From the NCBI RefSeq assembly GCF_004310335.1, contig NZ_SIRS01000005.1, positions 124,001-188,000 of the forward strand: 64,000 nt of DNA, given 5' to 3'. A program made the translations under genes and the position numbers. The notes under the pieces are model-generated. The model saw nothing but the letters and a program-made list of their open reading frames with translations, was not told the DNA's origin and did not search any database. This document shows positions 20,275 through 35,580 of this stretch, in pieces; the stretch's first letter is position 1, and the number at the start of each line of letters is the position of its first letter. The DNA comes from Hyunsoonleella pacifica. GTDB lineage: Bacteria > Bacteroidota > Bacteroidia > Flavobacteriales > Flavobacteriaceae.

Positions 20275-20631
20275 ATGGCAAGGCCTAAAAAGAACATCAA
20301 ATCAATTAAGTCAATTCAAGTAAATGTAAGATTTACAGTGGATCAATTTTTACTTGTTTCGGATAGTGCTCATTCTTTAGGTATTGAGACTACAGAATAT
20401 ATAAGAAGAAAATCTGCAGGCCGTCCAATGCCAAGGACTCAAATCAACAATACTGACAGAGCTGTTTTTGTAGAGCTAAGCAGAATAGGTAACAACTTAA
20501 ATCAAATAACGAAAAAAGTTCATATAGGAGCTCATTCACTGATACAACTTCAAGTACAACTTGTTGAATTAAAAAATGCACTCGATTTCATAAAATCTAA
20601 AATTTTAGGAGATGATAGCAAAACAGATTAA
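20275..20631 (+). CDS. mobC: Mobilization protein MobC (relaxosome accessory)
   Basis: A 118-residue DNA-binding accessory protein that helps the relaxase at oriT. The N-terminus is basic (ARPKKNIK), followed by a ribbon-helix-helix-like segment (QVNVRFTVDQFLLVSDSAHSL). The C-terminal half holds the MobC signature ELSRIGNNLNQI with the following helix. It starts 20 bases after the last oriT hairpin and overlaps the relaxase gene by 20 bases. Confidence 0.85.
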   Translation: MARPKKNIKSIKSIQVNVRFTVDQFLLVSDSAHSLGIETTEYIRRKSAGRPMPRTQINNTDRAVFVELSRIGNNLNQITKKVHIGAHSLIQLQVQLVELKNALDFIKSKILGDDSKTD

Positions 20632-21661
20632 AGGAAAAGATTTTTATGGAGTTCTAGCTTACAATCAGAAAAAGGTAGAACAAGGAGAAGGTCACGTAAT
20701 TGATAGCATCATAACATTGGATGAGACGGTAGCAATGACTAAAGAATTCAACTTAGTTAGACAATTACGTCCTAGGCTCGGAAAGGCTGTGTATCATGTA
20801 TCCTTGAATTTGCGTCCTGAAGAAAACTTGAGTGATGAGGAATTTAATTTACTAGGACTGGATTATTTGGTCGAGATGGGTTTTGATGATAACCAATACA
20901 TCATTTATAGACACACCGATCAAGAGCATCAACACATTCATATCATAGCAAACAGGGTAAAGTTCTCTGGAGAAGTGGTTAGCGATAGCAAAGATTATGA
21001 ACGAAGTGAAGCTGTAGTAAGAAAGCTAGAGAAGAAATATGGTTTGTTAGAATTGGTCAACAAGAAGCCAAAAAATAAAACAAACCTTACTCAAAAAGAA
21101 ATTGAGAAAACTATTAGAACTGGTAAGATTCCAATAAAACTTTTGCTTCAGGGCAAAATTGAAAATTCTCTATTACACTCAAATAATTTAGGGCAATTCG
21201 TTCAAGCCTTACTTGCTGAAGGCATATCACCCAAATTCAATGTAAGTAAAAGTACTGGTAGAGTATCAGGTGTATCCTTTAGACATGACGACGTGATATA
21301 CAAAGGAAGCACTTTGGGAAGAAATTTCTCATGGAACAACATTATAAAAAGAATAGACTATGAGCAAAGCAGAGACCATTCAATTATTCTCGAAGCTAAT
21401 AGAGCAAAATTTGGAGCTGCGGGAGTTGCTTTTGAATCTTCAAAAGGACCAGTCAGAGTCAATAAAGAGACAAACAGTTCTTCGGGAAGGTCAAGAGCAG
21501 ATTTTGAAAAATCAAAATATTATTTGGGGACTACTCAAAAAAGTACTTTGACGGTAAGTAGTGAATTTAATTCGGAATGGACTGCATTTAAATTAGAACT
21601 GAATGATTTAGGCATCAAGAAGTCAAAAAAGAAAAGGAAAAAGAAATTCTTGAGACATTAA
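20612..21661 (+). CDS. mobA: Relaxase/mobilization nuclease (MobA/VirD2 family)
   Basis: Nicks one strand at oriT and stays covalently bound to it through a tyrosine. The N-terminal nuclease domain has the three-histidine metal site in HTDQEHQHIHI (H106, H108 and H110, with H101 nearby). The catalytic Tyr is probably Y17 (or Y12) in FYGVLAYNQKK. The 349-residue length is at the short end for the family; the C-terminal part is basic and low in conservation features. It overlaps mobC by 20 bases. A second, coiled-coil-like frame of 63 codons lies inside its 3' part (21360-21551). Confidence 0.9.
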   Translation: MIAKQIKGKDFYGVLAYNQKKVEQGEGHVIDSIITLDETVAMTKEFNLVRQLRPRLGKAVYHVSLNLRPEENLSDEEFNLLGLDYLVEMGFDDNQYIIYRHTDQEHQHIHIIANRVKFSGEVVSDSKDYERSEAVVRKLEKKYGLLELVNKKPKNKTNLTQKEIEKTIRTGKIPIKLLLQGKIENSLLHSNNLGQFVQALLAEGISPKFNVSKSTGRVSGVSFRHDDVIYKGSTLGRNFSWNNIIKRIDYEQSRDHSIILEANRAKFGAAGVAFESSKGPVRVNKETNSSSGRSRADFEKSKYYLGTTQKSTLTVSSEFNSEWTAFKLELNDLGIKKSKKKRKKKFLRH

Positions 21662-21970: not shown

Positions 21971-22492
21971 TTATTCTACATTTCTTTCTAAAATCAAATT
22001 TAAAAATGAAGTTGGTTGCAAAAAGTAGTTTGGATTTTCCTCCAACTTTTCTTTTATGAGAATAAGACCTCCATTCGTATAAGACTCCATCGTTTTAAGA
22101 ATTAATTTGATTGCTTGATCTTCGTCAAGTTCACCTTTCTCTAGTTCTACCAAGTCTATATCTGTTTTTGCGATGATTGCAATGAATATGTTTTCTTGAA
22201 GATTAGTAAAATCCTTTCGTGTGGTAATTGTCGTTTTGCTTCCCCAATGCTGAATGTGATGACTAAAATCCGTTTTCTTTTCCTTATCTGGAATTGGACT
22301 ATATTCATTGTTATAAAGTCCTAGAAAAAAGGCGTAGGTATATAGTTCGTAGTTAGTACTGAAATGCTTCCCCAGATTAATCTTCTTTTCGCCTTCCGCA
22401 CCAAACTTTTGAGAAAGTGAGGCAAACAAATCTTTATGTACCACACTGTATTTTGGAATTTTAGTTTTCCATTTTTCAAATAAATTATTCAT
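21971..22492 (-). CDS. Unknown protein of the phosphorothioation-linked module, 173 aa
   Basis: Family not recognised. It is the last gene of the eight-gene minus-strand operon and starts one base after the SMC-like ATPase stop. It is soluble, with a central SHHIQHWG segment and a STNYELYTYAFFLGLY stretch that could be a hydrophobic core helix. No HNH, PD-(D/E)xK or other nuclease motif is clear. By position it is a partner of the adjacent ATPase, probably part of the restriction arm. Confidence 0.7.
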   Translation of the reverse strand: MNNLFEKWKTKIPKYSVVHKDLFASLSQKFGAEGEKKINLGKHFSTNYELYTYAFFLGLYNNEYSPIPDKEKKTDFSHHIQHWGSKTTITTRKDFTNLQENIFIAIIAKTDIDLVELEKGELDEDQAIKLILKTMESYTNGGLILIKEKLEENPNYFLQPTSFLNLILERNVE

Positions 22493-22493
22493 C

Positions 22494-24644
22494 TTATAGT
22501 GTAATTACTTGTGAATTAATTGTTTTCAAATTATTTGGGTCAAAAGGTCTTTCTAGTTTTACCCAAAAAGCTTTATTTCTTCTAACGCTCTCAAATTCTT
22601 TTTTGATAGAAAGTGCTTTAGTCGTTTTATCAGTATTTAGAAAATCTTTAATGAGTAATATTTTTTGATTCTCGGTTTCAAAAATTAAGTTCAGGAACTG
22701 CGCAGTTTTATTCTCACCAAATGATGATGTGGGCGCATCAAAAATCATTGGAAAATTTTCTTCTTTTGTTTCTGTGGCTAATTCTGAAATAGCAAAAAGG
22801 ATTGAGATATGCATTGATGTTAGCAACGATTGATTGGGCTTATAAAAAACTCTACCATCCTCTTGCAACTCTACTTCAACTATAGTTCGACTAATTTTAT
22901 TTCGTCTTATAAACACAATCGTACCCGTGAACGCATCAATGTTAATTTTCTTAAAAAAGGTATTTGACTTTGATTGTAGCTTCTCAATAAACTCATCAAA
23001 CTTTTTCTCTTTAGTGTCCAAAAAGATAGTTTCAATATCTCGCAATATATTTCTAGTTTTAATCAGGAAAGAATTTGCAGAATCAGTATCAATCTTATCT
23101 TTTTCCTCTTTCTTTATTTTCAGTTGTGCTTCAATCTTTTCATATTCTGATGTATATCTAAGTTGATCCCGGTTACGGTTTTTCAAATCATCTTGCCAAG
23201 CATTATAATTTTTAAGTACATCAATTAATTTTTCTTCTGCAATGCTAGAGTTTCCTAATATCCTCTCTCTTTCTAATTTTTCCTTTTCTAACTGCTCATT
23301 AAGTTCTTCAATCTCTTTTTTCCTATCACTATTAAACTCAAACAGTTCTTTAATTTTAGTTCTTATTGATCGTAGATTTTTCAAATTGTCTTCGTGGCTA
23401 ATACTCAAATTTTCTAGCCTATTTGTGTAATCTAATTTAAAAAGTGGCTCATCTTCTTCGTCTTCTGTTTCATCTACAACTTGGCTTTCGAGATAAGTCT
23501 TTAGTCTCTCCATCATAAATTCATAGGCGTCAGAGCCCTTTTTTGCTTCACGATTACAAACTTTGCATATTTCATCTTTTAGCATTTCTTCCATATGTGC
23601 CTTTGATGGTACACCGGTCGGAAGTGGAACAGCATTATTGAGCAAATCAGCTTTTGCTTTTTTCTCACCGAGCTTAATTCCCTTTTCTTTATCAAACTCC
23701 GATTGAAGTTCTCGTCGTCTTATACTGTGCTTGGATACCTTTTTAGCGAATTCTTTATGATATGGTTCGAAATTGACAAGAATCCAGTTTTCATCAAATA
23801 GTGATGTCGTGTAGTTTTCATCAATTTGACCGTTTAGGGAAGAAATATTTTGTTCAATCTCTTTTATACGTTTATTCAAAGTTTCTAGGGCATCAGCATT
23901 TTTAACGTGACTTGCTGCCGATTGTAAATTCCCCTCAATTTTCCTAATTTCTTCATCAGTAGAGTTTAGATGAACTTCGTATTTAGCTTTCTCCTTTTGA
24001 AGAAGTGAAATTTCCCCCTCAAGTTTCTTGTAAAGATTTGCATTTTTCTTGTCAAGCTTCGCAGAATCTTCTACTGCTTTTTCAGCTTTTTCTCTTAGAA
24101 AAGTTCCTTTCTCTGAATATTTATCATAGTGTTTTGCCTCTGAAAATAAATTTATAAGGTTAACTAGAGCATTATCGCTTTCAAAAATGTTCAAATCAGC
24201 TTCGCCCTTAAACATAGAGTATTTTCGAATTTGAAAAGGGAATATTCTATCTAAAAGCGTAGCCCCGTCAACTTGACTTCGTTCACCCAAATTATTTTCT
24301 TCAATACCTTCAATCATAAAGCTCGATGTTGAACACTGATTCTCTTTTTCCTTCCTAGCTACAAAAGATCTTGTTATTATTTTATTATCGCCATACTGTT
24401 CAACAGTCATTGAAACCCTTACTCTAAAACTTTCGCCGGTTTCGGTTTCACTTAATTTTTTTGCAGAAACTAGTAGTTCTAAGTCTTCATTTTCACCATT
24501 GAATAACCAATCCACAGCTTCAAAAAACTTTGTTTTTCCTTCCCCATTTTCTCCAAGAATAATATTCAAGCCTTCCGACAATACAAAAGGATTAGTGTCA
24601 TAGTAACATAAGTAATTGTCTATTTCAATCTTTCTGATAATCAT
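22494..24644 (-). CDS. SMC/RecN/DndD-like ATPase with zinc hook
   Basis: A 716-residue ATPase of the Rad50/DndD kind. Walker A GENGEGKT lies at 31-38. Long coiled coils (~180-335 and ~400-560) flank a CKVC zinc hook at 360-363. The C-terminal head has an MHISILFAISELA signature-like region and a Walker B segment with FDAPTSSFGE near residue 645. DndD in double-strand phosphorothioation systems has this architecture. Here it lies downstream of ssp-type genes, so a role in the restriction arm, acting with the 76- and 173-residue proteins, is likelier than a role in sulfur insertion. It overlaps the 76-residue gene by four bases. Confidence 0.8.
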   Translation of the reverse strand: MIIRKIEIDNYLCYYDTNPFVLSEGLNIILGENGEGKTKFFEAVDWLFNGENEDLELLVSAKKLSETETGESFRVRVSMTVEQYGDNKIITRSFVARKEKENQCSTSSFMIEGIEENNLGERSQVDGATLLDRIFPFQIRKYSMFKGEADLNIFESDNALVNLINLFSEAKHYDKYSEKGTFLREKAEKAVEDSAKLDKKNANLYKKLEGEISLLQKEKAKYEVHLNSTDEEIRKIEGNLQSAASHVKNADALETLNKRIKEIEQNISSLNGQIDENYTTSLFDENWILVNFEPYHKEFAKKVSKHSIRRRELQSEFDKEKGIKLGEKKAKADLLNNAVPLPTGVPSKAHMEEMLKDEICKVCNREAKKGSDAYEFMMERLKTYLESQVVDETEDEEDEPLFKLDYTNRLENLSISHEDNLKNLRSIRTKIKELFEFNSDRKKEIEELNEQLEKEKLERERILGNSSIAEEKLIDVLKNYNAWQDDLKNRNRDQLRYTSEYEKIEAQLKIKKEEKDKIDTDSANSFLIKTRNILRDIETIFLDTKEKKFDEFIEKLQSKSNTFFKKINIDAFTGTIVFIRRNKISRTIVEVELQEDGRVFYKPNQSLLTSMHISILFAISELATETKEENFPMIFDAPTSSFGENKTAQFLNLIFETENQKILLIKDFLNTDKTTKALSIKKEFESVRRNKAFWVKLERPFDPNNLKTINSQVITL

Positions 24645-24871
24645 AAGGCCTCGTTTAAATATTGTGTTACTTGATTCCTTAAAACTGAGTCCGTAACTGG
24701 TGAAGTACCATCTAATCCCTCTACTATCAAAGCAATTGCTTTTACAATAGTCTTGTCTGAATTTAGAGCTTCCCTTATTGTAGTTGGTAAATCTGTTTTA
24801 TCAAATTCATATTTAGATTGAAGAAGGTCGTGGTTTAAAAAACTTTTGAGTATGGTATCTTTTCTTGCCAT
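24641..24871 (-). CDS. Unknown small protein of the phosphorothioation-linked module, 76 aa
   Basis: Family not recognised. It sits between the helicase (gap of 10 bases) and the SMC-like ATPase (4-base overlap), so it is co-translated with both. It is predicted to be wholly helical, with no cysteines, and could be an adaptor or a middle-domain protein such as those seen between helicases and SMC-like ATPases in defence operons. It does not resemble DndE as I know it. The tight coupling supports a real gene. Confidence 0.7.
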   Translation of the reverse strand: MARKDTILKSFLNHDLLQSKYEFDKTDLPTTIREALNSDKTIVKAIALIVEGLDGTSPVTDSVLRNQVTQYLNEAL

Positions 24872-24881
24872 AAGAGTAATA

Positions 24882-27086
24882 TTATATATCGTTCAGGTTT
24901 AAACTATAGTAGTCTAAAACATTCTTTAGTGTTTCATAGGTATCAGACTTATTCATAGCTAAATTGGCGAAGTCAACAACTCTCTCAAGTTCTTTCCTTA
25001 CCAATCCTTTTTCCATCTCAAAAGTATTTTCTTCAGAGCCTACCTCAGGCACTACTACTAAATCGTGAATTGTTGCGTGTGTTTTATCGTCGTGCAAACG
25101 TAAAACCCTACCTCTACGCTGAATAAATTGTCTAGGATTTCCTGTGCTAGCACAAAATATGGCTAACTCTGAGCGTGGAACATCTACACCTTCATCCAAA
25201 CACTTCATTGATGTTAATACGTGAGTATTGCCAAATTCAAAACTCTTGAGTATGTCTTCACGATTGATAGAGTTAGATGTGAACTGCTTTACCATAATAG
25301 AGTTATCTGTTTGACTAACAACTCTGGTGTACTCATTTATCAACCTGTTTTCATCTTCCGTTTCGACACTAAAATCCACATTTTCAAAATTTGATTCTAC
25401 TCCTTCTGGGACATACACCAATGTATATTTTAGATTTCCGCGCTTATTATATTCATTGTTTAATATACTTTTAAAAGACTCTAACTTATTTGCTGCTTTG
25501 TGAATAATACGTTTTCTTTGAAGAAGCAATCTCTCGATTTCTGGACTACTCTTGAATGCACCTGTTTCTTCATCAAACATTCCCATTCTTAATAATTGCA
25601 GAGATAATCTCTTATATTCCTCCAATTCCTGAGGGGTAAGTCTAACGATGTGTGGGTAATAAGTATAACTACACAACCATCCAATTTTTAGAGCTTCCTC
25701 CATAGAATATGAAACTATGTAAGGCGGCTCATCATTAAAAAATTCTTGAATGGCTCTATTTCCAAGTTCATCAAATTGTCTATGCGGTGTTGCAGACAGT
25801 CCAATTCTCTTCTCCAAATGTACGTTTGGTAAAATTCTCAAAAGGCCTTGTGAACCCAGATTATGGGTCTCATCTGCTATTAAGATGGTATCGCTAGGAA
25901 GTTGGGTAAAATAGCTCTGAAACTTCTTTCTTGGTAAAGAAGCATATGTAACAATGACAATAAAGGATGTTTCAATAAGTTTTGAGGCTGTATTGAAGAA
26001 AGCAAGATTACTATCCCAATTTTCCTTGGAACTTACTGTAATAATATTTTTGAAGTTAAACTTGGCACATTCCTTTTTCCACTGCTCTACTAAAGCAATA
26101 GTGGGCACCATTATAATGGCCCTATAGACGTTTGTTGTTTTGTATTCATTCAAAAGACAGTTAAGAGAAGTGATTGTTTTTCCTGTCCCGGTAGCCATTG
26201 CGAAAACCCCCTTATAATTATTAGAAACCCATTCATTATATGCATCAATCTGATATTCTCTAGGGCCTTCTTTATATGGAAATTTAGGTGTTCTGCGAAT
26301 GATGTCGATTTGATTGAAAAGTTTTGTAATCGTTCGTTTTAGTTTAGGATTTGAGATGAGACTTCTCTTCTTTTTTAAGAGTTGTTCTTCCTGAACAAGT
26401 AATTCATTGATATCCTTTTTACCGAACTTATCCTTAAGTACAACTTCTATCTCATCGACGGGAATATACTCTACGTCTTCATCCTTTTCAGAAAAATAAG
26501 TATCAATTAATTTCCGTTGTTTTCGTATCAAGGTATTTGATCGTCCATTTTCCCAACTTAGAAAAGCTTCTAGTTCCTCTAAATTTTCTGATAATCCATA
26601 AAGAGTGAAATTACAGGATGCCTTATAACCTACCGAATCTTGTCCATCACTAAAAATCCCAGACTTATAGTGAGCTATTCCTTTTCCATTTTTCGGTTTT
26701 ATTACTTTGATTTCAATTCGCTTTTCAGAAATGAGATAAGTTAAACACTCAAAGAAGTGAGTATCATATTCGTCCAACACTTTTCCTAAAGAAACTACAT
26801 CCATCAAATCAAAAACCTTTCCTTGAGGTTCATTACTTGCTCTTGTAATAGCTTCTTTGTCTTTTGAAGACAGTAAATGATTTATGACCATTTTCATTGT
26901 ACCACCTTTACTGATGAAGGTGGCAAAGCCAACGGAAAGAAGATTGATAGCAGAAGAACTGAAATAGCCTAGTAGTAGATTAAACTCATTACTATTGGCC
27001 AACCCATCTAAGTAAAATTGTAGTGGCTCATTTTCCAAACCTGTTTTATAGTCTCGATCTTTTGACCATTCGCAATCTTTAAGCAT
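24882..27086 (-). CDS. PLD-like domain plus SF2 helicase, probable restriction component
   Basis: A 734-residue protein. Residues ~20-175 resemble a phospholipase-D-like nuclease domain: H139-x-K141 with a following Asp and a CNFTLYGL segment where the GSxN motif is expected; the spacing is slightly off, so activity is uncertain. The helicase core has Walker A ATGTGKT (298-304), a DETH box (405-408), a LSATPHR motif III and QRRGRVLR motif VI. Such helicases accompany phosphorothioation genes as restriction enzymes that attack unmodified DNA (family knowledge). Its ATG overlaps the cysteine desulfurase stop by eight bases. Confidence 0.8.
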   Translation of the reverse strand: MLKDCEWSKDRDYKTGLENEPLQFYLDGLANSNEFNLLLGYFSSSAINLLSVGFATFISKGGTMKMVINHLLSSKDKEAITRASNEPQGKVFDLMDVVSLGKVLDEYDTHFFECLTYLISEKRIEIKVIKPKNGKGIAHYKSGIFSDGQDSVGYKASCNFTLYGLSENLEELEAFLSWENGRSNTLIRKQRKLIDTYFSEKDEDVEYIPVDEIEVVLKDKFGKKDINELLVQEEQLLKKKRSLISNPKLKRTITKLFNQIDIIRRTPKFPYKEGPREYQIDAYNEWVSNNYKGVFAMATGTGKTITSLNCLLNEYKTTNVYRAIIMVPTIALVEQWKKECAKFNFKNIITVSSKENWDSNLAFFNTASKLIETSFIVIVTYASLPRKKFQSYFTQLPSDTILIADETHNLGSQGLLRILPNVHLEKRIGLSATPHRQFDELGNRAIQEFFNDEPPYIVSYSMEEALKIGWLCSYTYYPHIVRLTPQELEEYKRLSLQLLRMGMFDEETGAFKSSPEIERLLLQRKRIIHKAANKLESFKSILNNEYNKRGNLKYTLVYVPEGVESNFENVDFSVETEDENRLINEYTRVVSQTDNSIMVKQFTSNSINREDILKSFEFGNTHVLTSMKCLDEGVDVPRSELAIFCASTGNPRQFIQRRGRVLRLHDDKTHATIHDLVVVPEVGSEENTFEMEKGLVRKELERVVDFANLAMNKSDTYETLKNVLDYYSLNLNDI

Positions 27087-28236
27087 ATTTTGATTGAGGT
27101 TCAGTTAGTTTTCTTATGTTCTCAACAACTAGTTCAACATCTTCCATTGTATTATACTTTCCCAATGAAAAACGTAATGACGCGAGTGCATCATCATTAC
27201 TAAGTCCCATCGATTTGAGAACGTGAGATGGCTCAAAAAAAGCTGATGAACAAGCCGAACCATTTGAAACTGCAATGTTCTTCATTCTACCAATTAGTAC
27301 ATTAGCATCCTGCCCTTTGAAGCATATATTAGTTGTATTATAAATCCTTTTAGTTGAATCGCCATTTAGTGCTGTATTGGGCATTCTTAACAATTCATTT
27401 TCCAGTTTATCCCTTAATTCAGATATGATTGTCCTATCCTCTTTCATTTCCTGACTAGAAATTTCACAGGCTTTCGCTAAGGCTATAATCCCAGGTACAT
27501 TAAGTGTGCCGCTTCTTAATCCTATTTCGTGACCACCACCGTGTGTTTGAGGTGTGAGATTTACCCGTTTATCGCTCTTTCTTACGTATAAAGCACCGAC
27601 ACCTTTTGGGGCGTACATCTTATGCCCGCTGAAACAAAGTAAGTCTATATCTAATTGCTTTACATCAACTTCAATTTTACCAACAGCTTGGGTAGCATCT
27701 GTCATAAATAGTGCTCCTTTTCCGTGGGTTATCTCAGCTATCTTGTTGATAGGTTGAATTATCCCTGTCTCATTATTGACATACATAACCGAAACAAGTA
27801 TAGTATCCGTTCTTATAGACCGTTCTAAGAGGTCCAAATTCAGTAAACCATTTTCTTCAACTGGTAAATAAGTAACTTCAAAACCTTTTCTTTCCAAATC
27901 TCCACAAGTATCCAAAACTGCTTTATGTTCAGTTGAAACAGTAATGATGTGACTTCCCTTGCCTTTGTAACTCTCTGATATTCCCTTGAGTGCGAGGTTA
28001 ATTGCTTCTGTAGCTCCACTTGTGAAGATAACTTCATTGGGTTCTGAATTTATAAATTCAGCGATTTGGTTTCTGGCTTGTTTAACTTTTTCGTTTATTA
28101 ATTGACCGAAATGATGTGTGCTACTTGAGTTTCCAAAACTATCCTTTAAATAAGGCAACATTGCATCTACTACCCTGGCATCGACTGGGGTAGTAGAATT
28201 GTAATCTAGGTATGATATGTTTTGTTTTTGATTCAA
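27079..28236 (-). CDS. sspA: Cysteine desulfurase (SspA/DndA-like)
   Basis: PLP enzyme that takes sulfur from cysteine and supplies it for DNA phosphorothioation. The 385-residue protein has the NifS/IscS layout: LDYNSTTP at the start, H104 in STEHKAV, the PLP Lys206 in SGHKMYAP and the sulfur-carrying Cys329 in SNGSACSS. The start must be TTG at 28236: a TGA codon immediately precedes it and the first in-frame ATG is inside the folded domain. It follows the sspD-like gene after a 114-base gap and overlaps the helicase gene by eight bases. A housekeeping IscS role is unlikely in this context. Confidence 0.82.
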   Translation of the reverse strand: MNQKQNISYLDYNSTTPVDARVVDAMLPYLKDSFGNSSSTHHFGQLINEKVKQARNQIAEFINSEPNEVIFTSGATEAINLALKGISESYKGKGSHIITVSTEHKAVLDTCGDLERKGFEVTYLPVEENGLLNLDLLERSIRTDTILVSVMYVNNETGIIQPINKIAEITHGKGALFMTDATQAVGKIEVDVKQLDIDLLCFSGHKMYAPKGVGALYVRKSDKRVNLTPQTHGGGHEIGLRSGTLNVPGIIALAKACEISSQEMKEDRTIISELRDKLENELLRMPNTALNGDSTKRIYNTTNICFKGQDANVLIGRMKNIAVSNGSACSSAFFEPSHVLKSMGLSNDDALASLRFSLGKYNTMEDVELVVENIRKLTEPQSKYA

Positions 28237-28350
28237 TCAGATTTCCAATAAAATGTTCAATAGTTTTTAATAATATTAAAAATGGAAGCAAAACCTCCTT
28301 GGCTTCTTACAATTCCAACTCCTTAATTTTTCCACTTATTCGTTTGAAAA

Positions 28351-29454
28351 TCAAATGAAACAAGCAGCACATCCTTCATTCTCATCATCACCCAAGATGT
28401 CAACCAGATAAGGGGATTTAACTTTAGATTTTCTTTCCATCCTTTTGATATATTCCTCTTTAATTTTTTCTATTCTTTCAGGTTGTATCAATTCTTCTAA
28501 ACTTTCATTTTGACCCCAGGTATAACCATCCTTCTCATAATCCATAGCTTTCTTATATAATTCAGGGTGTTGTTCATATAACCAAACCCATTCGATTTTT
28601 TGTTGAAAAAAGCAAAAGAAACATCCTGAACGGCTTCGAGCATATTCGCCTTTTTTACCGTTAACCTCAAACTCAATTTTATTGTAATAGGCGGGAACGC
28701 CTACACCACTTTCTTCTAAAATCTTGAAAATATCAGCTTTAACTAAAACTTCGTCATTGTCCAATAATGGAAACACTTCTTCTTTAGCCAAAGGATAATC
28801 TGTTGTTTTCAAAAAATCGAAAACTAGGTGATTAAAGGCTTTAACATTTGAATCTAACAATATGTTGAGTTTCTGATCAAGAGTAAATTGAGGGCTCACC
28901 ATTTGTGAAAGGGCTTGAAAAGCCTTTTCTTGATTTTGACCAAAATCTATAGTTCTGGACATTAAAACTAGTTGCTCTATATTTTGATTGGATAGCATCT
29001 TTTTCACCACATCCTTACTCCAAATATTCTTACGAAAAGGAAATATTGACTGAATATTTTTCTTCGTAGAGATGTAACCCTCTCTTTCTTCATCACCTCT
29101 AATACCAACGTATGAAACTACTGGGTCATCACCAACATAGTTCTCAAAAGGTGCTAATTTCAATTGTTTCGTACACCAGCGAGCATTGGATGAAGGTAAA
29201 AAACCACCATACATTTTTAGAAAATGATCAAATGAATCTTCTGAACTTTTCTCCGCCCCCTGTAAAAGATTAATTTTTACACCAAGATAGACTTCTAAAT
29301 TTCTAATCAATTGATATGTTTCTTCTAATTCCTTACCCGTGTCACAAGAATAAAATTCCAAATCAATGGATGGATATTTAGTCTTCACATAAATAGCCAA
29401 AGCAGCACTGTCCTTGCCTCCCGATATACCTAATACGTGTCTTGTTTTGCTCAT
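28351..29454 (-). CDS. sspD: PAPS-reductase-like ATP pyrophosphatase (SspD/DndC-like)
   Basis: Activates the DNA backbone for sulfur insertion, with electrons relayed by an iron-sulfur cluster (established for DndC; SspD is the equivalent in single-strand systems). The 367-residue protein has the PP-loop SGGKDS at 11-16, the ARWCTKQLKL segment (C94), and the SGCFFCFF motif (C278, C281) followed by a W-rich YEQHPELY region shared with DndC. The C-terminus ends in a CAAC pair (C362, C365), a further possible cluster ligand. The ATG overlaps the stop of the large ATPase gene (29451-29454). Confidence 0.85.
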   Translation of the reverse strand: MSKTRHVLGISGGKDSAALAIYVKTKYPSIDLEFYSCDTGKELEETYQLIRNLEVYLGVKINLLQGAEKSSEDSFDHFLKMYGGFLPSSNARWCTKQLKLAPFENYVGDDPVVSYVGIRGDEEREGYISTKKNIQSIFPFRKNIWSKDVVKKMLSNQNIEQLVLMSRTIDFGQNQEKAFQALSQMVSPQFTLDQKLNILLDSNVKAFNHLVFDFLKTTDYPLAKEEVFPLLDNDEVLVKADIFKILEESGVGVPAYYNKIEFEVNGKKGEYARSRSGCFFCFFQQKIEWVWLYEQHPELYKKAMDYEKDGYTWGQNESLEELIQPERIEKIKEEYIKRMERKSKVKSPYLVDILGDDENEGCAACFI

Positions 29455-32400
29455 TGCAATAATTCTTTTAATAGATTCAATACAGCTGCTATATTCGAAG
29501 TATTATCTTTACCAAGCTTATTCTTTAAATCGTTTTTCAATCGCTCAATCTCTTTGCTCTTACTTTTGGGCATTCTTACTACCTTTGGGTCAATCTTGCT
29601 GAAGAAAGAATCAATTTTAACTCCAATTACTTCCTCTTTACTTTCGTCTATATCAGTTTTAGAAATTTTCGTCAAGCTATCTAAATCTAGAATCATTGAC
29701 TTAAACTTCTCATATAGCAAAATTTCATCTTCATCAGAAAACCTTTCAAGAGTTTTACCCATTATTGCCTGTCCAATTGAATTTAACCAAGCCTTTTTGT
29801 CATCAAGCGGTGAGTCAAGGCGTTGAATGAATGATTTTTGATTGTTTAAAAGCATATGCTTTTTTAAACTTGAAAATCTTTTTTGAAGAGATTCTCTATA
29901 ATCCTCAAATTCAACTTTACTGCCAACAAACTCATTAACTATGAACTCTTCGAACCTATTAAGAAGACCATCATATGCCGTTCTTAATTCCTTAACTGCA
30001 TTTTGAAGGTTTACAGTATAATTTTGAAGTTTGGACTTATCCTTTTGCAAAGCGCTTAAGGTGATTCCAAGAGCGCTTGGAAAGGCTTCAAAAAATGTTT
30101 TTTCAGGATCCCTACTGTTGGCAATAGCTTTACGTATCTTCTTGGCGGAAGGGGATAATCTATTTGTATGTTTACTGTATTCTGGCAATTGTTTGTAAAA
30201 AACAATAAATGGCTTAATAGTTTCAATAAAAGACTCGTTATCAAATTTTTCCTGAGTTCCAATATCTAGGAACGTTCGATAGCTGTTGAAAATATCTAGT
30301 TTAACACCTTCTATGTCGAAGGCTTTGATGGAATACTTGTCTGGGTACTTAGCAATTAATTCAAGATTTTCTTCAGAAAGGTCTGGTATATAACTGTCAT
30401 CGTTGAAAATTGCAAAATCGTCGCGTTTTAAAAATAGAAAAGTAGGAATCCAAAAATCAATAAATCCTTGTTTAAGTTTAAAAGGTCTTTTACACAAAAT
30501 ATTAGCCAACTCTGAAATCCTAAGTTGCTCAGATTTGGCACTTTCTATAAAATCTTCAGAGGCTCTCCATAATTTATTGAACGAAGAATTTTCTTTAATG
30601 GTCACTACACCTGTAGTGTTTTCTCTTACTGGTGAAATCCCATTTTCTTTTAAAAGTGATAGATAAATAGTTTTTTCTGGCGGAAATTTGGAATCTTCAA
30701 AACCTAAGTTCGCTTGATCCCAGCAATTTGTTAAGGCTCTAAAATAATTTCTTTTGGCTGTATGAATTGAAGAAGAAATTTTGTGTTTATTTACCAATTC
30801 ATTTTTAAATATGGGCGTTGCTTCGTATACGAAGCTACAAACTTGAGAAAGTAGTTTGTTAAAGTCTTTCTTGTCTCCGATAGTTTTTTCCTCACCATTG
30901 AAATACCACTTTACTTCTTTGCCTCCAGAATATATGCTATCCTTTATATAATGGTTAAGTAGCCTAATTTGTGATTCTACTATATTTTCGAGCTCCCTTT
31001 TAGCAACCTTGTCATCTTTGTTTTCTTCTATGACTTTCTGAATTTTCTCTATCTCAAATAACAAATTTTTAATCTCGGCAGAATTGTTGAAAAAACAATA
31101 AATTATAGCTTCTTCTTGAAGTTTAGATTTGTTTTTAATGTCACTTTCTTTCAGCTTACTACTAAAAATAAGATTTACGAAACCGTCAACTTCTCCTAAT
31201 GGTATTTCCTGAATCGGATAATCTGAAATAACGAACTCAAAATATCTTGGGGTGCCAGTTATGAAAGAATACTGCTTTGCAAATACAGGGCCAAAGTGGA
31301 AATGCTTGTTCAAAAGCGTAGTTATATCAACTACTTCCGAAATTTTATTTCCTGCTTCAATTAAAGCATTGTGGATATCCAAATCTGTTCCTTCGAACAA
31401 AATAAATCGTTTCGAATGCTCACGATAACGAATAATATTTTTCGTTTCGAGATTCTCAATTACGATCTTTGAGTTAGTGATACCACAAGCAGTTTTAAGG
31501 TAATCAACCAAAAAATTCAAATCTAAGACTGAACCACTAGCAGAAAAAATGTTTAAAAGGCCGATAACTTTAACAGTCTTGATATAGTTGTTGATATCAA
31601 GGTCAAATGCTCTTTCGACTTCTTCAATAGCAGAACGAATAGAACCCCAGGCAGAAAAATCAGGATTATACCTTGATATTAAAAACGAATAAAAATTAAA
31701 ATTTAAATAGTCATATACGTTGGACAAATTGTAAAAAGGATTTTCACGCTTATCAAATTTTGATAGGCCGGTATGATCCGAAGATTCAAGAAAGGAAAAC
31801 AATGATCTTTCGTTTTGACCATATTTTTGAAGAGAAAGAGTTAGAGTGTTAGCCGAAAGAATATCTAAAGGATATAGCTTTGAAGCGATATCCTTCAAAA
31901 AACCTGTATTAAAGTTGAAGGCTTTCGTTTCAGTTGTCAATGTCAAGCACTTTTCAATATCTTGAGCCGATGTACTTGCATCAAATTTTTCAACAAGATA
32001 CTCTGATGCTAAAAACAATAACTGCTCAACAGGCTCATTAAAAGTTATTTCACGAAAACGACCTTTGATTTTAGTCCATTCCTGTTGCTGAGTTTTACTT
32101 AAGGAATAAGCATAAGATTCTAAACTCTGGTGAACTGTTGTGATTAGAACAATATTATGATTCGGGTTGTTGCAAAATTCTGCAAGTTGTTGAACAAAAT
32201 ACAGTTCCCTTTCAGGGTTGTTTCTCGTAGCATATTCCAAGAATTTCCCAAACTCATCAACCAAAATAAATAAAACCTTGTTTTGGTCACCTAAAGAATG
32301 GTACCTATTGAATATCTCAGAAAGTATGTTTTCCTGTAGATTTTTTTGAGATACAACATCAAATGTATCTTTAAATTGCTCTATAATCGACGTGTAAGAG

Positions 32401-32669
32401 CCAATTATTTTAACAAAATCAAAATTAGGATTGCTTATAAAATTTGGGTCGAAGTAACGTTTTTCTCCCTTTACACTTTGTTCAAATGCTAAGAGGAAAG
32501 ATGACTTCCCAGTACCATAAGTTCCTACAACATTAAAAGAACGAATTCCCTTTTTAAAATCATTGACTATTTGACTAACAACTTGTTTTGCATTTGGTGT
32601 GGGGATATAATTAAAATCCCTGTTAGTGTCTCTAATGATATTAACTGATGTCGTGAAATTATTTGCCAT
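29451..32669 (-). CDS. sspC: Large P-loop ATPase (SspC-like)
   Basis: A 1,072-residue ATPase next to a DUF4007 gene, the arrangement of SspB-SspC in single-strand phosphorothioation systems. Walker A GTYGTGKSS is at 49-57, Walker B VLFILVDEFG at 131-140, and a TTVHQSL sensor-like motif follows near residue 178. The long C-terminal part is helical with coiled-coil stretches. SspC is thought to drive modification together with SspB and SspD (family knowledge); assignment here is by domain pairing. It overlaps sspB by 11 bases and sspD by four. Confidence 0.78.
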   Translation of the reverse strand: MANNFTTSVNIIRDTNRDFNYIPTPNAKQVVSQIVNDFKKGIRSFNVVGTYGTGKSSFLLAFEQSVKGEKRYFDPNFISNPNFDFVKIIGSYTSIIEQFKDTFDVVSQKNLQENILSEIFNRYHSLGDQNKVLFILVDEFGKFLEYATRNNPERELYFVQQLAEFCNNPNHNIVLITTVHQSLESYAYSLSKTQQQEWTKIKGRFREITFNEPVEQLLFLASEYLVEKFDASTSAQDIEKCLTLTTETKAFNFNTGFLKDIASKLYPLDILSANTLTLSLQKYGQNERSLFSFLESSDHTGLSKFDKRENPFYNLSNVYDYLNFNFYSFLISRYNPDFSAWGSIRSAIEEVERAFDLDINNYIKTVKVIGLLNIFSASGSVLDLNFLVDYLKTACGITNSKIVIENLETKNIIRYREHSKRFILFEGTDLDIHNALIEAGNKISEVVDITTLLNKHFHFGPVFAKQYSFITGTPRYFEFVISDYPIQEIPLGEVDGFVNLIFSSKLKESDIKNKSKLQEEAIIYCFFNNSAEIKNLLFEIEKIQKVIEENKDDKVAKRELENIVESQIRLLNHYIKDSIYSGGKEVKWYFNGEEKTIGDKKDFNKLLSQVCSFVYEATPIFKNELVNKHKISSSIHTAKRNYFRALTNCWDQANLGFEDSKFPPEKTIYLSLLKENGISPVRENTTGVVTIKENSSFNKLWRASEDFIESAKSEQLRISELANILCKRPFKLKQGFIDFWIPTFLFLKRDDFAIFNDDSYIPDLSEENLELIAKYPDKYSIKAFDIEGVKLDIFNSYRTFLDIGTQEKFDNESFIETIKPFIVFYKQLPEYSKHTNRLSPSAKKIRKAIANSRDPEKTFFEAFPSALGITLSALQKDKSKLQNYTVNLQNAVKELRTAYDGLLNRFEEFIVNEFVGSKVEFEDYRESLQKRFSSLKKHMLLNNQKSFIQRLDSPLDDKKAWLNSIGQAIMGKTLERFSDEDEILLYEKFKSMILDLDSLTKISKTDIDESKEEVIGVKIDSFFSKIDPKVVRMPKSKSKEIERLKNDLKNKLGKDNTSNIAAVLNLLKELLQ

Positions 32670-33534
32670 AATATTTATCTAATATCTTAAATGCTTGAAC
32701 CTTATTTTTGAACTGCAACTCTTTTATTCCCGCTTGGTCTGTAAAAGTTATTCCTTCAAACTCACTAACTATTTCAGAAATTTTATTCATCAAGCCTTGA
32801 CGGTTCAATGCAAAAATTGAGCCTGGGCTATTGATATTGAACTCTAAGGAATTTAAACTGATGGAATTTCCGTAATCTTCATTTTGAAGAATTGCATAGA
32901 GCACGACAAATTCAGATAGGCTATCTCTTTCGCTGTTTTCTATATAGAATTGTTCATCTTTTCCTTTCCCGGTGGTCAATAGAAGCCCTATTTCAGATAG
33001 AATCCCTGTGAAACTATCTTCTATATTCTTTCCTTTAGATTCATTTTTATACAAATTCGTAAATACATTAAAGTCTTTAGCAACAGTATTTTCATTGAAA
33101 TTAAGATGACTATTACTTTCAGCAATCCTCTTCAAATAATTAATATATGTTTCTTTATTAAAGAAGAGCTTTTCTTTTCTGAACTCATTGAAAACAATGC
33201 TGTATATAGAAGCAAAACCAGTTTTTACTAAATTGTAGTGTAAAAGCCATAAGCTTGCTTCATCTTCCAAAAATGGGTCATAGCCAATCTCGTCATCAAA
33301 TAGCTTTTTCCCAAATTCGGTCGGTGAATCATTATTGTCTACAATGTTGAACGCTTTTAGCCAAAAGCGAATTGAAGAAACCATATTTTTACCGACGCCA
33401 AGTTTGACAACTGCATCTTCATCATTAAAGTTTTTATTATCGACTACGTAGTCATAACCTTTTTTCAACCACAACTGTCTACACTGAAAAGAGTCGTGTC
33501 CTGAAAAAGTATATTTCGTATTTAGCGAACCCAA
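32659..33534 (-). CDS. sspB: DUF4007 protein (SspB-like DNA nickase)
   Basis: First gene of the operon. The 291-residue protein starts with the hallmark DUF4007 sequence FSGHDSFQCRQLWLKKGYD and continues with a LGVGKNMVSSIRFW segment, both strongly conserved in the family. SspB members nick DNA at the modification site so that sulfur can be placed. The start is TTG at 33534: only one codon separates it from an upstream in-frame TAA, and the first in-frame ATG lies at residue ~51, inside the conserved domain. No clear TAnnTTTG promoter was found upstream. Confidence 0.85.
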   Translation of the reverse strand: MGSLNTKYTFSGHDSFQCRQLWLKKGYDYVVDNKNFNDEDAVVKLGVGKNMVSSIRFWLKAFNIVDNNDSPTEFGKKLFDDEIGYDPFLEDEASLWLLHYNLVKTGFASIYSIVFNEFRKEKLFFNKETYINYLKRIAESNSHLNFNENTVAKDFNVFTNLYKNESKGKNIEDSFTGILSEIGLLLTTGKGKDEQFYIENSERDSLSEFVVLYAILQNEDYGNSISLNSLEFNINSPGSIFALNRQGLMNKISEIVSEFEGITFTDQAGIKELQFKNKVQAFKILDKYYGK

Positions 33535-34117: not shown

Positions 34118-35464
34118 TTATTTGAATTTAGGCAAACTTTGAACTAACATTCCACTATAGTCCTCAGCAAGTTCGGCATCTATATCCCTTAAATATTCTT
34201 TTAGAGCTTTTAGAGTTGAATGACCTGTGACAAGCATTAATTTATCATAGGTTTCTGTTATAGTATATTTTTTCCTGAATTCGCTAAATAATATTGTAAT
34301 GATTGTATGCCTGAAAGAGTACATGGTATGGTCATCCGTTAGTTGGTAATTAATGTTTTGCTCAATTAGATACTCATTGAATTTCGTTTTTAAACGCCCA
34401 TATCTCTTTGTGAAATATTCTCTTCTACTTGTTTCTTGTACTTCCTTTCCGTTTTTTCCTTTTACCAACCAAGATTTTCCCATACCACCTGGAGTAAAAA
34501 GAAGTGCATTTTGCTTAGAATAGTCCAGATTCAACAATTCCGAAACAACTAGATCAGGAATGAGTTTCCTTTTTGTGGGCTTGTTTTTTGCTTTAACATA
34601 AAGATATTTTTCTGGAATAATCAAATCCTTTAAGCGCAATCTACATACTTCTATAGGTCGTAAAAAATTATAGGCTACTACTTTCACAAATAAGAATAAC
34701 AAGGGGTCATTCTCAATCATAAATTTGAAAAGTTCTTCTAATATTGAAATTGGATAAGTTTTATGTACTACTGAATTGGTTTTAAGATCATCAATATCCT
34801 TAATGAAGTTTCTTGGAATAATTTCATCCTTTTCTAGAACACCGAAAAATGAACTCAATACGGTTTTATGATTATTGCTAGAGCGAGAATTAGAAATTCC
34901 ATTCAAATAAAGATTTACATGCCTTTTTGTAACATCTAATATATTTCTTTTTAGAAGCCCTTTTTTTTCAAGATACTCCTTGAACAATTTATGTTTGCTC
35001 TTATAATCGGGTAGTGTGGTTGCCGATACTTTTTTAGTTCTATATTCCAATGCATAATCCAAGGCAGCTTCAGCAGTATAATTCAGTGATTCTTCATTAA
35101 AGAACTTTTTTCTGTCGTATGGTGAATGCCCTTGCTTTAACAATTCATGTATTACGTCCCTGAGCCATTCCAAATACTTTAACCGCTCCCTAACCGTCTT
35201 GAACTTTCTATTAGCCCCGTACATGATATGCGACTGGCGAACCATTTTGGGAGATCCATCTTTGTTTTTTAATGTTGGATGTTCATACGAATAATAAACG
35301 AACCATCTTTTCGAAAGGTCAAAATTGTCACCACCATGATAGATACGTGGCTCGATGTATTTCTTTTTTAAGCTGATAGGAAAGGTATCTTTATATTTAG
35401 TGAATTCTGATTCACTGTTTACGTTACTGTTTACGCTTTGTAAGATACTAAAAAAATAACTCAT
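34118..35464 (-). CDS. Tyrosine recombinase/integrase of the element
   Basis: Catalyses integration and excision at the adjacent tRNA gene. The 448-residue protein has an N-terminal SAM-like core-binding region (~125-230) and a catalytic domain with R269 (FLRPIEVCRLR), the YSFRH box (R385, H386), H415 (TGHSTLK) and nucleophile Y424 (KEYLRD), so it looks active. The ATG at 35464 is preferred; a TTG at 35494 would add ten residues. The gene ends at the element interior and starts 43 bases from the tRNA 3' end, the usual position for a tRNA-targeting integrase. Confidence 0.88.
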   Translation of the reverse strand: MSYFFSILQSVNSNVNSESEFTKYKDTFPISLKKKYIEPRIYHGGDNFDLSKRWFVYYSYEHPTLKNKDGSPKMVRQSHIMYGANRKFKTVRERLKYLEWLRDVIHELLKQGHSPYDRKKFFNEESLNYTAEAALDYALEYRTKKVSATTLPDYKSKHKLFKEYLEKKGLLKRNILDVTKRHVNLYLNGISNSRSSNNHKTVLSSFFGVLEKDEIIPRNFIKDIDDLKTNSVVHKTYPISILEELFKFMIENDPLLFLFVKVVAYNFLRPIEVCRLRLKDLIIPEKYLYVKAKNKPTKRKLIPDLVVSELLNLDYSKQNALLFTPGGMGKSWLVKGKNGKEVQETSRREYFTKRYGRLKTKFNEYLIEQNINYQLTDDHTMYSFRHTIITILFSEFRKKYTITETYDKLMLVTGHSTLKALKEYLRDIDAELAEDYSGMLVQSLPKFK

Positions 35465-35507
35465 TGTATTAAGACTTAAAATCTTGAATAACAATGAGTT
35501 ATTGTTG

Positions 35508-35580
<73 letters not shown>

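Follow-up and report, generated by a model that had tools for sequence, protein, structure and literature searches.

An eight-gene locus of Hyunsoonleella pacifica in which SspBCDA-type phosphorothioation genes are joined to a PbeABCD-type effector set

Which effector accompanies a single-strand-type phosphorothioation (PT) module when neither SspE nor SspFGH lies beside it? The question is raised by a locus of Hyunsoonleella pacifica within a stretch of 64,000 nucleotides (contig NZ_SIRS01000005.1, positions 124,001 to 188,000; hereafter the window). An initial annotation had placed a set of eight minus-strand genes at 21971-33534 of the window and had proposed that PT modification genes are followed by a coupled restriction module, possibly a distinct type mixing Ssp and Dnd parts. 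ORF calling recovered eight intact minus-strand open reading frames (ORFs) spanning these coordinates. The favoured explanation, with a probability of roughly 0.8, is that the locus is an SspBCDA-PbeABCD PT-based antiviral system carried as cargo on a putative integrative conjugative element (ICE) of ~81 kb in this Bacteroidota genome. The eight genes are as follows (lengths in amino acids, aa; SF2, superfamily 2).

32659..33534, minus strand: SspB (DUF4007), predicted DNA-binding and nicking part of the modification module, 291 aa (PF13182, PADLOC SspB, 6juf/6lb9)
29451..32669, minus strand: SspC, AAA+ ATPase, 1072 aa (PADLOC SspC PDLC02776)
28351..29454, minus strand: SspD, PAPS-reductase-like sulfurtransferase, 367 aa (PADLOC SspD; PP-loop SGGKDS)
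27079..28236, minus strand: SspA, cysteine desulfurase, 385 aa, overlapping pbeA by 8 bp (PADLOC SspA/DndA)
24882..27086, minus strand: PbeA, N-terminal HKD/PLD nuclease domain and SF2 helicase, 734 aa (PADLOC PbeA)
24641..24871, minus strand: small protein in the PbeB position, 76 aa (position, size, substitution rates)
22494..24644, minus strand: PbeC, ABC ATPase with a mid-chain CxxC zinc hook (C360-KV-C), 716 aa (PADLOC PbeC, relatives, DndD profile)
21971..22492, minus strand: protein in the PbeD position, probably PbeD, 173 aa (position; TIGR04062 and PADLOC PbeD scores)

The first four genes are identified by homology as an SspBCDA modification module. Matches to Pfam, PADLOC and solved structures agreed with the initial naming of SspB (DUF4007), SspC-like, SspD and SspA homologues. 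SspB matched PF13182 with 261.5 bits, the PADLOC SspB model with 398 bits and the solved SspB structures 6juf/6lb9 with an E of 7e-20. The second protein scored 1684 bits against PADLOC SspC PDLC02776, covering 1038 of its 1039 positions, and 238 bits against BrxC. SspD, whose translation contains the PP-loop SGGKDS, scored 315 bits against its own PADLOC model as compared to 28 bits for BrxP and 18.5 bits for the DndC models. The desulfurase was barely separable between PADLOC SspA (549 bits) and DndA (546 bits); it stands in one operon with homologues of SspB, SspC and SspD, the composition of an SspABCD module. Genome-wide searches of the host returned no second SspD, no DndC and no GmrSD_N (SspE-type, DUF262) match, and neither PglZ nor BrxL was matched by any of the eight proteins in Pfam, PADLOC and TIGR model searches. 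With no DndC in the genome and an ATPase that groups with PbeC, the locus does not belong to DndABCDE. Ssp systems studied in Vibrio and Escherichia coli introduce single-strand PT at 5'-CCA; the motif used with this SspB may differ.

The last four genes have, on family matches and layout, the order and anatomy of PbeABCD. The protein annotated as a PLD-like helicase scored 1119 bits in a full-length match to PADLOC PbeA, which bears out that description, and 405 bits against TIGR04095 (model cut-off, 600). Pfam matched its ResIII and Helicase_C domains and returned no match for the PLD domain. Residues H139, K141, S157, N159 and E170 were invariant in 9/9 aligned sequences (the window's protein and eight relatives from four families), a set which we take to resemble the site pattern of HKD nucleases. 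The PLD, ResIII and helicase C combination of PbeA is thus present. The ATPase was matched directly by PADLOC PbeC at 54 bits, and relatives in the same position reached 88 (L013), 107 (L015) and 168 bits (L018); here and below, G and L numbers are our handles for genomes and loci. Its family profile aligned with that of DndD over 611 columns (100% probability, E 2e-56). A mid-chain cysteine pair occurred in 60 of the 61 PbeC proteins listed (L029 and G628 counted as one record), the remaining one being a 336-aa fragment without the pair. This hook is CxC in most groups and CxxC in the window's Bacteroidota group and a few others (L063, L070, L075). On these relatives, the DndD profile and the CxxC pair, the ATPase belongs to PbeC, a sister family of DndD; the zinc hook and DndD-like character noted initially stand, and its assignment to DndD itself does not.

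The two small genes, initially left unassigned, occupy the positions of PbeB and PbeD, which have 66 and 152 aa in the Haloterrigena cassette (PMC6459918). The 76-aa gene is present between PbeA and PbeC and is conserved in relatives. Its predicted model is helical (predicted local distance difference test, pLDDT, 75; predicted template modelling score 0.57), which mildly opposes the description of PbeB-type proteins as 'mostly disordered' (PMC10853773). The 173-aa protein is probably PbeD on its position and scores: it reached 16.8 bits against TIGR04062 (dnd_assoc_4; cut-off, 74.25) and 12 bits against PADLOC PbeD, relatives at the same position were found by phmmer and hmmsearch (that of L015 reaching 20.6 bits against TIGR04062) and its AlphaFold model was helical and confident (pLDDT 85). 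The same four-gene order was found beside dndBCDE in the Ruegeria plasmid NZ_CP045388.

Two other identities for the downstream genes were rejected. SspFGH, the check proposed with the initial annotation, does not fit a set of four genes rather than three in which the PbeA match is full-length and the four proteins match Pbe-type families; no model named SspF, SspG or SspH was matched in PADLOC 2.0.0, whose inclusion of such models was unchecked. SspE is likewise rejected by the lack of a GmrSD_N gene genome-wide. The proposal of a distinct type therefore holds as regards SspABCD-SspFGH and fails as regards the effector, already named PbeABCD (PMC6459918).

The arrangement of the genes was examined for evidence of joint transcription and of selection. 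Neighbouring ORFs overlap by 11 bp (SspB/SspC), 4 bp (SspC/SspD), 8 bp (SspA/PbeA) and 4 bp (PbeB/PbeC), all four as initially reported, and are otherwise separated by 114 bp between sspD and sspA (28237-28350), 10 bp between PbeA and PbeB and 1 bp between PbeC and PbeD. The 114-bp spacer, which went unmentioned when a single transcriptional unit was proposed from the overlaps, contains a short, weak terminator-like hairpin (28298-28284); the region holds nine terminator-like sites as compared to a shuffled mean of 6.3. Because of these gaps and the hairpin, transcription of the eight genes as one unit is only likely. Per-gene protein identities between the window and Hyunsoonleella flava (L028) were 85-93%, and ratios of non-synonymous to synonymous substitution rates (dN/dS) were 0.03-0.11 across all eight genes, indicating purifying selection. 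The values for the 76-aa and 173-aa proteins were 0.11 and 0.03, respectively, and the small ORFs are therefore genes.

The pairing was then counted in a census, a draw of 395 genomes from the window's order (PbeA at E <= 1e-60; SspC at E <= 1e-30). PbeA was present in 16/395, SspC in 15/395 and both in 12/395 (Fisher p 3e-17), with the two genes no more than 9 kb apart in all 12. DndC was matched nowhere in these 12 genomes. The other four PbeA genomes (G725, G529, G355, G021) had DndC within 11 kb and no SspC; for G355 and G021, the distances of 7.5 and 11 kb lay beyond the stretches first examined. Each of the 16 PbeA genomes had exactly one PT type and never both, one ssp set being decayed. 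SspC occurred without PbeA in three genomes, in two of which (G571, G721) a contig edge fell inside ssp; the third, G672, is considered below.

For a wider sample, 76 PbeA loci were assembled from three sources: a profile search whose query was an alignment of nine PbeA sequences, 18 G genomes and three plasmid records. The 80 contig-search loci were the matches listed, selected by pattern, and many are metagenome-assembled genomes (MAGs), so that proportions among them are not those of a census. L029 (taken to be the same contig as G628), L098 and L084-L107 (below the 250-bit PbeA threshold) were dropped before counting and L010 was not entered. Loci were labelled Ssp when at least one of SspB, SspC or SspD exceeded 100 bits and DndC was absent from the stretch examined; L030 was labelled none despite sspA-pbe near a contig end. 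The labels were 33 Ssp, 16 Dnd and 27 neither, becoming 33, 18 and 25 when the genome-wide DndC search moved G355 and G021 to Dnd; anatomy counts and the single-origin test used the earlier labels (33 Ssp, 16 Dnd).

Among the loci listed, Ssp-linked PbeA fell into three groups on a quick tree built without bootstrap, 27 rows of which had an odd amino-acid make-up. The first comprised 20 loci of the Bacteroidota group, the second 10 loci from Bacillota, Fusobacteriota, one Methanobrevibacter MAG and one other bacterium, and the third three loci from Acidobacteriota, Rhodobacteraceae and a remotely related family within the window's phylum (G167). At least three Ssp/Dnd changes were required on this tree, and a single origin of Ssp-linked PbeA was rejected (approximately unbiased test, p-AU 1e-43; 33 Ssp versus 16 Dnd). 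SspD of the Lachnospiraceae locus L048 (Bacillota) resembles BrxP (258 bits) and has 4Fe-4S domains, a type found in 9/10 loci of the Bacillota-containing group; L049, the remaining one, is a short contig. The Ssp-Pbe pairing thus recurs in unrelated microbes and is not a one-off. The only viral-contig match was a distant helicase (L010, 26% over 219 residues), and the 25 plasmid records, at 24-35% identity, included none resembling the window locus. Gene identities at the strengths given, intactness, linkage and recurrence are directly established by these data.

The anatomy of the 33 Ssp-linked loci listed points to two units. In 20 of them the ssp genes preceded the pbe set on its own strand; in the other 13 they were on the opposite strand, 12 times downstream and once upstream. 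At most 50 bp separated pbeA from a desulfurase gene upstream of it in 20/33 Ssp-linked and 0/16 Dnd-linked loci; for the 13 Ssp-linked loci without such an abutting gene, it was absent from the stretch (eight), elsewhere (one) or 191-2549 bp upstream (four). As the desulfurase gene abuts pbeA even in loci with sspBCD in the opposite orientation (e.g. G265, G709, G218), units of sspBCD and sspA-pbeABCD are suggested. Protein identities further suggest that the Ssp and Pbe modules reassort. G495 shares 74-78% identity with the window for SspBCD and only 32-41% for PbeBCD; G265, G709 and G700 share 46-70% for PbeBCD and only 30-37% for SspB and SspC. Across 15 Ssp loci out of 33 (those of Bacteroidota with all four genes >200 aa), distances of SspC and PbeA were correlated (Spearman 0.52, Mantel p 0.0005), shared host descent being still included; the values were 0.31 (p 0.011) for SspC versus PbeC and 0.18 (p 0.08) for SspD versus PbeC.

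Additional genes were seen at several of these loci. The sspD-sspA gap is an accessory-gene slot, with no gene in the window (coordinates, window:28237-28350, L011:8058-9084, L028:7613-8848, L150:14942-16050). In H. flava the slot is occupied by a DndB-family protein (PF14072), and in G296 by a membrane-like protein and a nucleoside-deoxyribosyltransferase-like protein (PF15891); a similar-looking gene pair follows sspD in G672, which lacks Pbe. DndB is a regulator of Dnd systems. DndB-like proteins (40-74 bits) were found in seven Ssp-Pbe loci (L028, L055, G265, G399, G653, L031, L044), and PF14072 was confirmed in both loci scanned. In L048 (14885-16045), a sigma-70-like protein with regions 2 and 4 is encoded downstream of pbeD, and PbeC of the third Ssp-linked group (L018:2496-4622, L044, L083) has, in addition to the zinc hook, a cluster of four cysteines at its C-terminus. 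In a Selenomonas Ssp-Pbe locus, sspA and pbeA are separated by a GmrSD_N (SspE-type) gene (L076:7821-9941), and two effectors possibly share one modification module there. In G628 (L117:8892-16746), other genes in a block of ~6 kb take the place of the whole of sspD and sspA, most of sspC and the first part of pbeA; the pbe genes are otherwise intact beside the broken ssp set.

The locus was compared with known systems as far as they are set out in the parts of the cited sources used here. PbeABCD has been described as the effector of DndCDEA, a double-strand system, in Haloterrigena jeotgali A29 (PMC6459918). The window locus shares with DndCDEA-PbeABCD a PLD-ResIII-helicase, a ~70-aa protein, an AAA_23 ATPase and a ~150-aa protein in the same order, joined to a PT module. 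It differs in that modification is assigned to SspBCDA (single-strand type), in the CxxC hook where most other PbeC listed have CxC and in the desulfurase gene that abuts pbeA. The SspB, SspC, SspD and SspA families are shared with SspABCD-SspE and SspABCD-SspFGH (PMC8092258); unlike these, the locus has no GmrSD_N gene and its downstream set is not SspFGH. The same effector set has been reclassified as the CxC ABC-ATPase/DndE system, which similarly has an HKD-SF2 protein with a small protein and mixes and matches with modification modules; its partners are described as DndD-type systems and methylases (PMC10853773), whereas here the partner is Ssp. BREX (bacteriophage exclusion) type 4 likewise pairs SspB-, SspC- and SspD-like modification genes with another effector (PMC12839542), and is set apart by the PglZ and BrxL that went unmatched among the window's eight proteins.

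By analogy with these homologues, SspA and SspD would mobilise sulfur whilst SspB and SspC would scan and nick host DNA, sulfur being placed at a short motif in the backbone of a single strand. PbeC together with PbeD would scan DNA and direct PbeA (helicase and HKD nuclease), which with PbeB would act against incoming unmarked DNA. Host PT would be needed for protection, and the Pbe genes by themselves should do no harm, as in the haloarchaeal DndCDEA-PbeABCD system (PMC6459918). About half of archaeal PT sites are hemi-modified (PMC6459918), and Pbe would therefore already cope with one-strand marks there. DNA cutting by Pbe is disputed, virus replication being blocked without visible cleavage in archaea (PMC6459918) and cleavage by the Pbe-type set being argued for elsewhere (PMC10853773); the conserved HKD-type residues of PbeA fit the latter view. 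The modification chemistry, its strandedness and motif, the action of Pbe and phage defence itself are thus modelled on homologues.

The strongest alternative is that two independent defence systems share one island, i.e. a solitary SspBCDA with an epigenetic role and a Pbe set with another partner. Solitary PT modification and solitary PbeAC are both known, with methylase genes a frequent neighbour of the latter (PMC6459918), the 114-bp gap and its hairpin would permit separate units, and 12/33 Ssp-linked loci listed have their ssp genes downstream on the opposite strand. Weighed against this were the confinement of 12/12 co-occurrences to 9 kb in the window's order, the PT set (one decayed) in each of its 16 PbeA genomes, the placing of sspA no more than 50 bp ahead of pbeA in 20/33 Ssp loci and the SspC-PbeA distance correlation, and independence was considered unlikely. 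Much less probable is a Lamassu-like or other SMC-type system, in which the ATPase would be a Lamassu protein and the Ssp genes unrelated neighbours. LmuB (PDLC03859) was indeed the top PADLOC match of the ATPase, at 60 bits versus 54 for PbeC, whereas relatives preferred PbeC over LmuB (107 versus 69 bits in L015, 88 versus 85 in L013) and in L018, with PbeC at 168 bits, LmuB was not among the best 25. The DndD profile match, the mid-chain cysteine pair and the PbeA score of 1119 bits also oppose it, and Lamassu membership was rejected with no LmuA match among the eight proteins. No Pfam methylase domain was found in these proteins, the PADLOC methylase-named models that match them doing so in helicase and PP-loop parts. 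A decayed or silent cargo locus without present function, for which the broken ssp set of G628 provides a precedent, is similarly improbable given eight full-length ORFs with dN/dS of 0.03-0.11.

Several observations weigh against an SspBCDA-PbeABCD antiviral system. In G672, sspBCD is complete with neither a PbeA nor a DndC match, and G628, a Chryseobacterium relative, retains SspB and 224 aa of SspC with no SspD genome-wide. Neither modification module was present in the stretch examined in 25/76 PbeA loci listed, several of them cut by contig ends, and 155 of the 320 PbeAC without dndCD adjoin methylase genes (PMC6459918); because of these two observations, Pbe may also work with other marks. 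The direct matches of PbeC (54 bits) and PbeD (12-17 bits) are weak, LmuB scoring slightly above PbeC. The 76-aa protein matched no family above cut-off (best, Nmad5 at 12.8 bits, E 0.13), and the model of the 173-aa protein had no PDB match. A single hhalign comparison of PbeD with DndE gave a probability of 8% (E 0.004); PbeD as DndE, which is part of the CxC ABC-ATPase/DndE description (PMC10853773), is accordingly not supported for the window's protein. A literature search returned no experiment on this locus or on any Ssp-Pbe pair.

The element that carries the operon was delimited from the following features.

34118..35494, minus strand: tyrosine integrase-like protein (phrog_1 integrase, 83 bits; no Pfam match at E 0.001)
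35507..35580, minus strand: tRNA-Met (CAT), probable attachment site (67 bp repeated)
20275-20631 and 20612-21661, plus strand: MobC/NikA-like protein and MobA/VirD2-like relaxase, respectively (PF21983, PF05713, PF03432)

A further tRNA-Met, identical over 67 bases, is found at contig position 78440, 81 kb from the first and outside the window, giving a putative ICE at contig 78440-159580 (window 1-35580) with the operon at the integrase end. The operon is probably cargo of this element because the integrase-like gene and tRNA-Met adjoin it, the tRNA-Met is repeated and the relaxase and MobC lie between the copies. Several ORFs of the element resemble, by eye, Bacteroidota Tra and metal-efflux proteins and would be further cargo. 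Less probably, the two tRNA-Met copies are two resident tRNA-Met genes.

Both modules are already known and only their pairing looks new. The pairing was not found in the literature covered on PbeABCD, SspABCD and BREX type 4, and earlier notice of it is possible. The PADLOC SspC and PbeA models score very high here, which makes it probable that such SspC- and PbeA-like sequences were among those used to build PADLOC, under different names. That SspBCDA-PbeABCD forms an undescribed, widespread class of PT defence, assembled at least three times and with Pbe gated by single-strand marks, is an evenly balanced proposition. If true, Pbe would be a general PT reader with a swappable modification partner, and the desulfurase SspA would be built into the effector unit. 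Pbe has so far been tested only with Dnd marks, and 320/553 PbeAC were called solitary in a search that covered dndCD alone (PMC6459918). Some of these 'solitary' PbeAC may be Ssp-linked, because 16/16 PbeA genomes in the window's order have a PT set, one of them decayed, once ssp is counted. If one effector serves both Dnd and Ssp marks, what Pbe reads would become testable by module swap, for which the natural combinations in G495 and G265 would be ready bacterial test cases.

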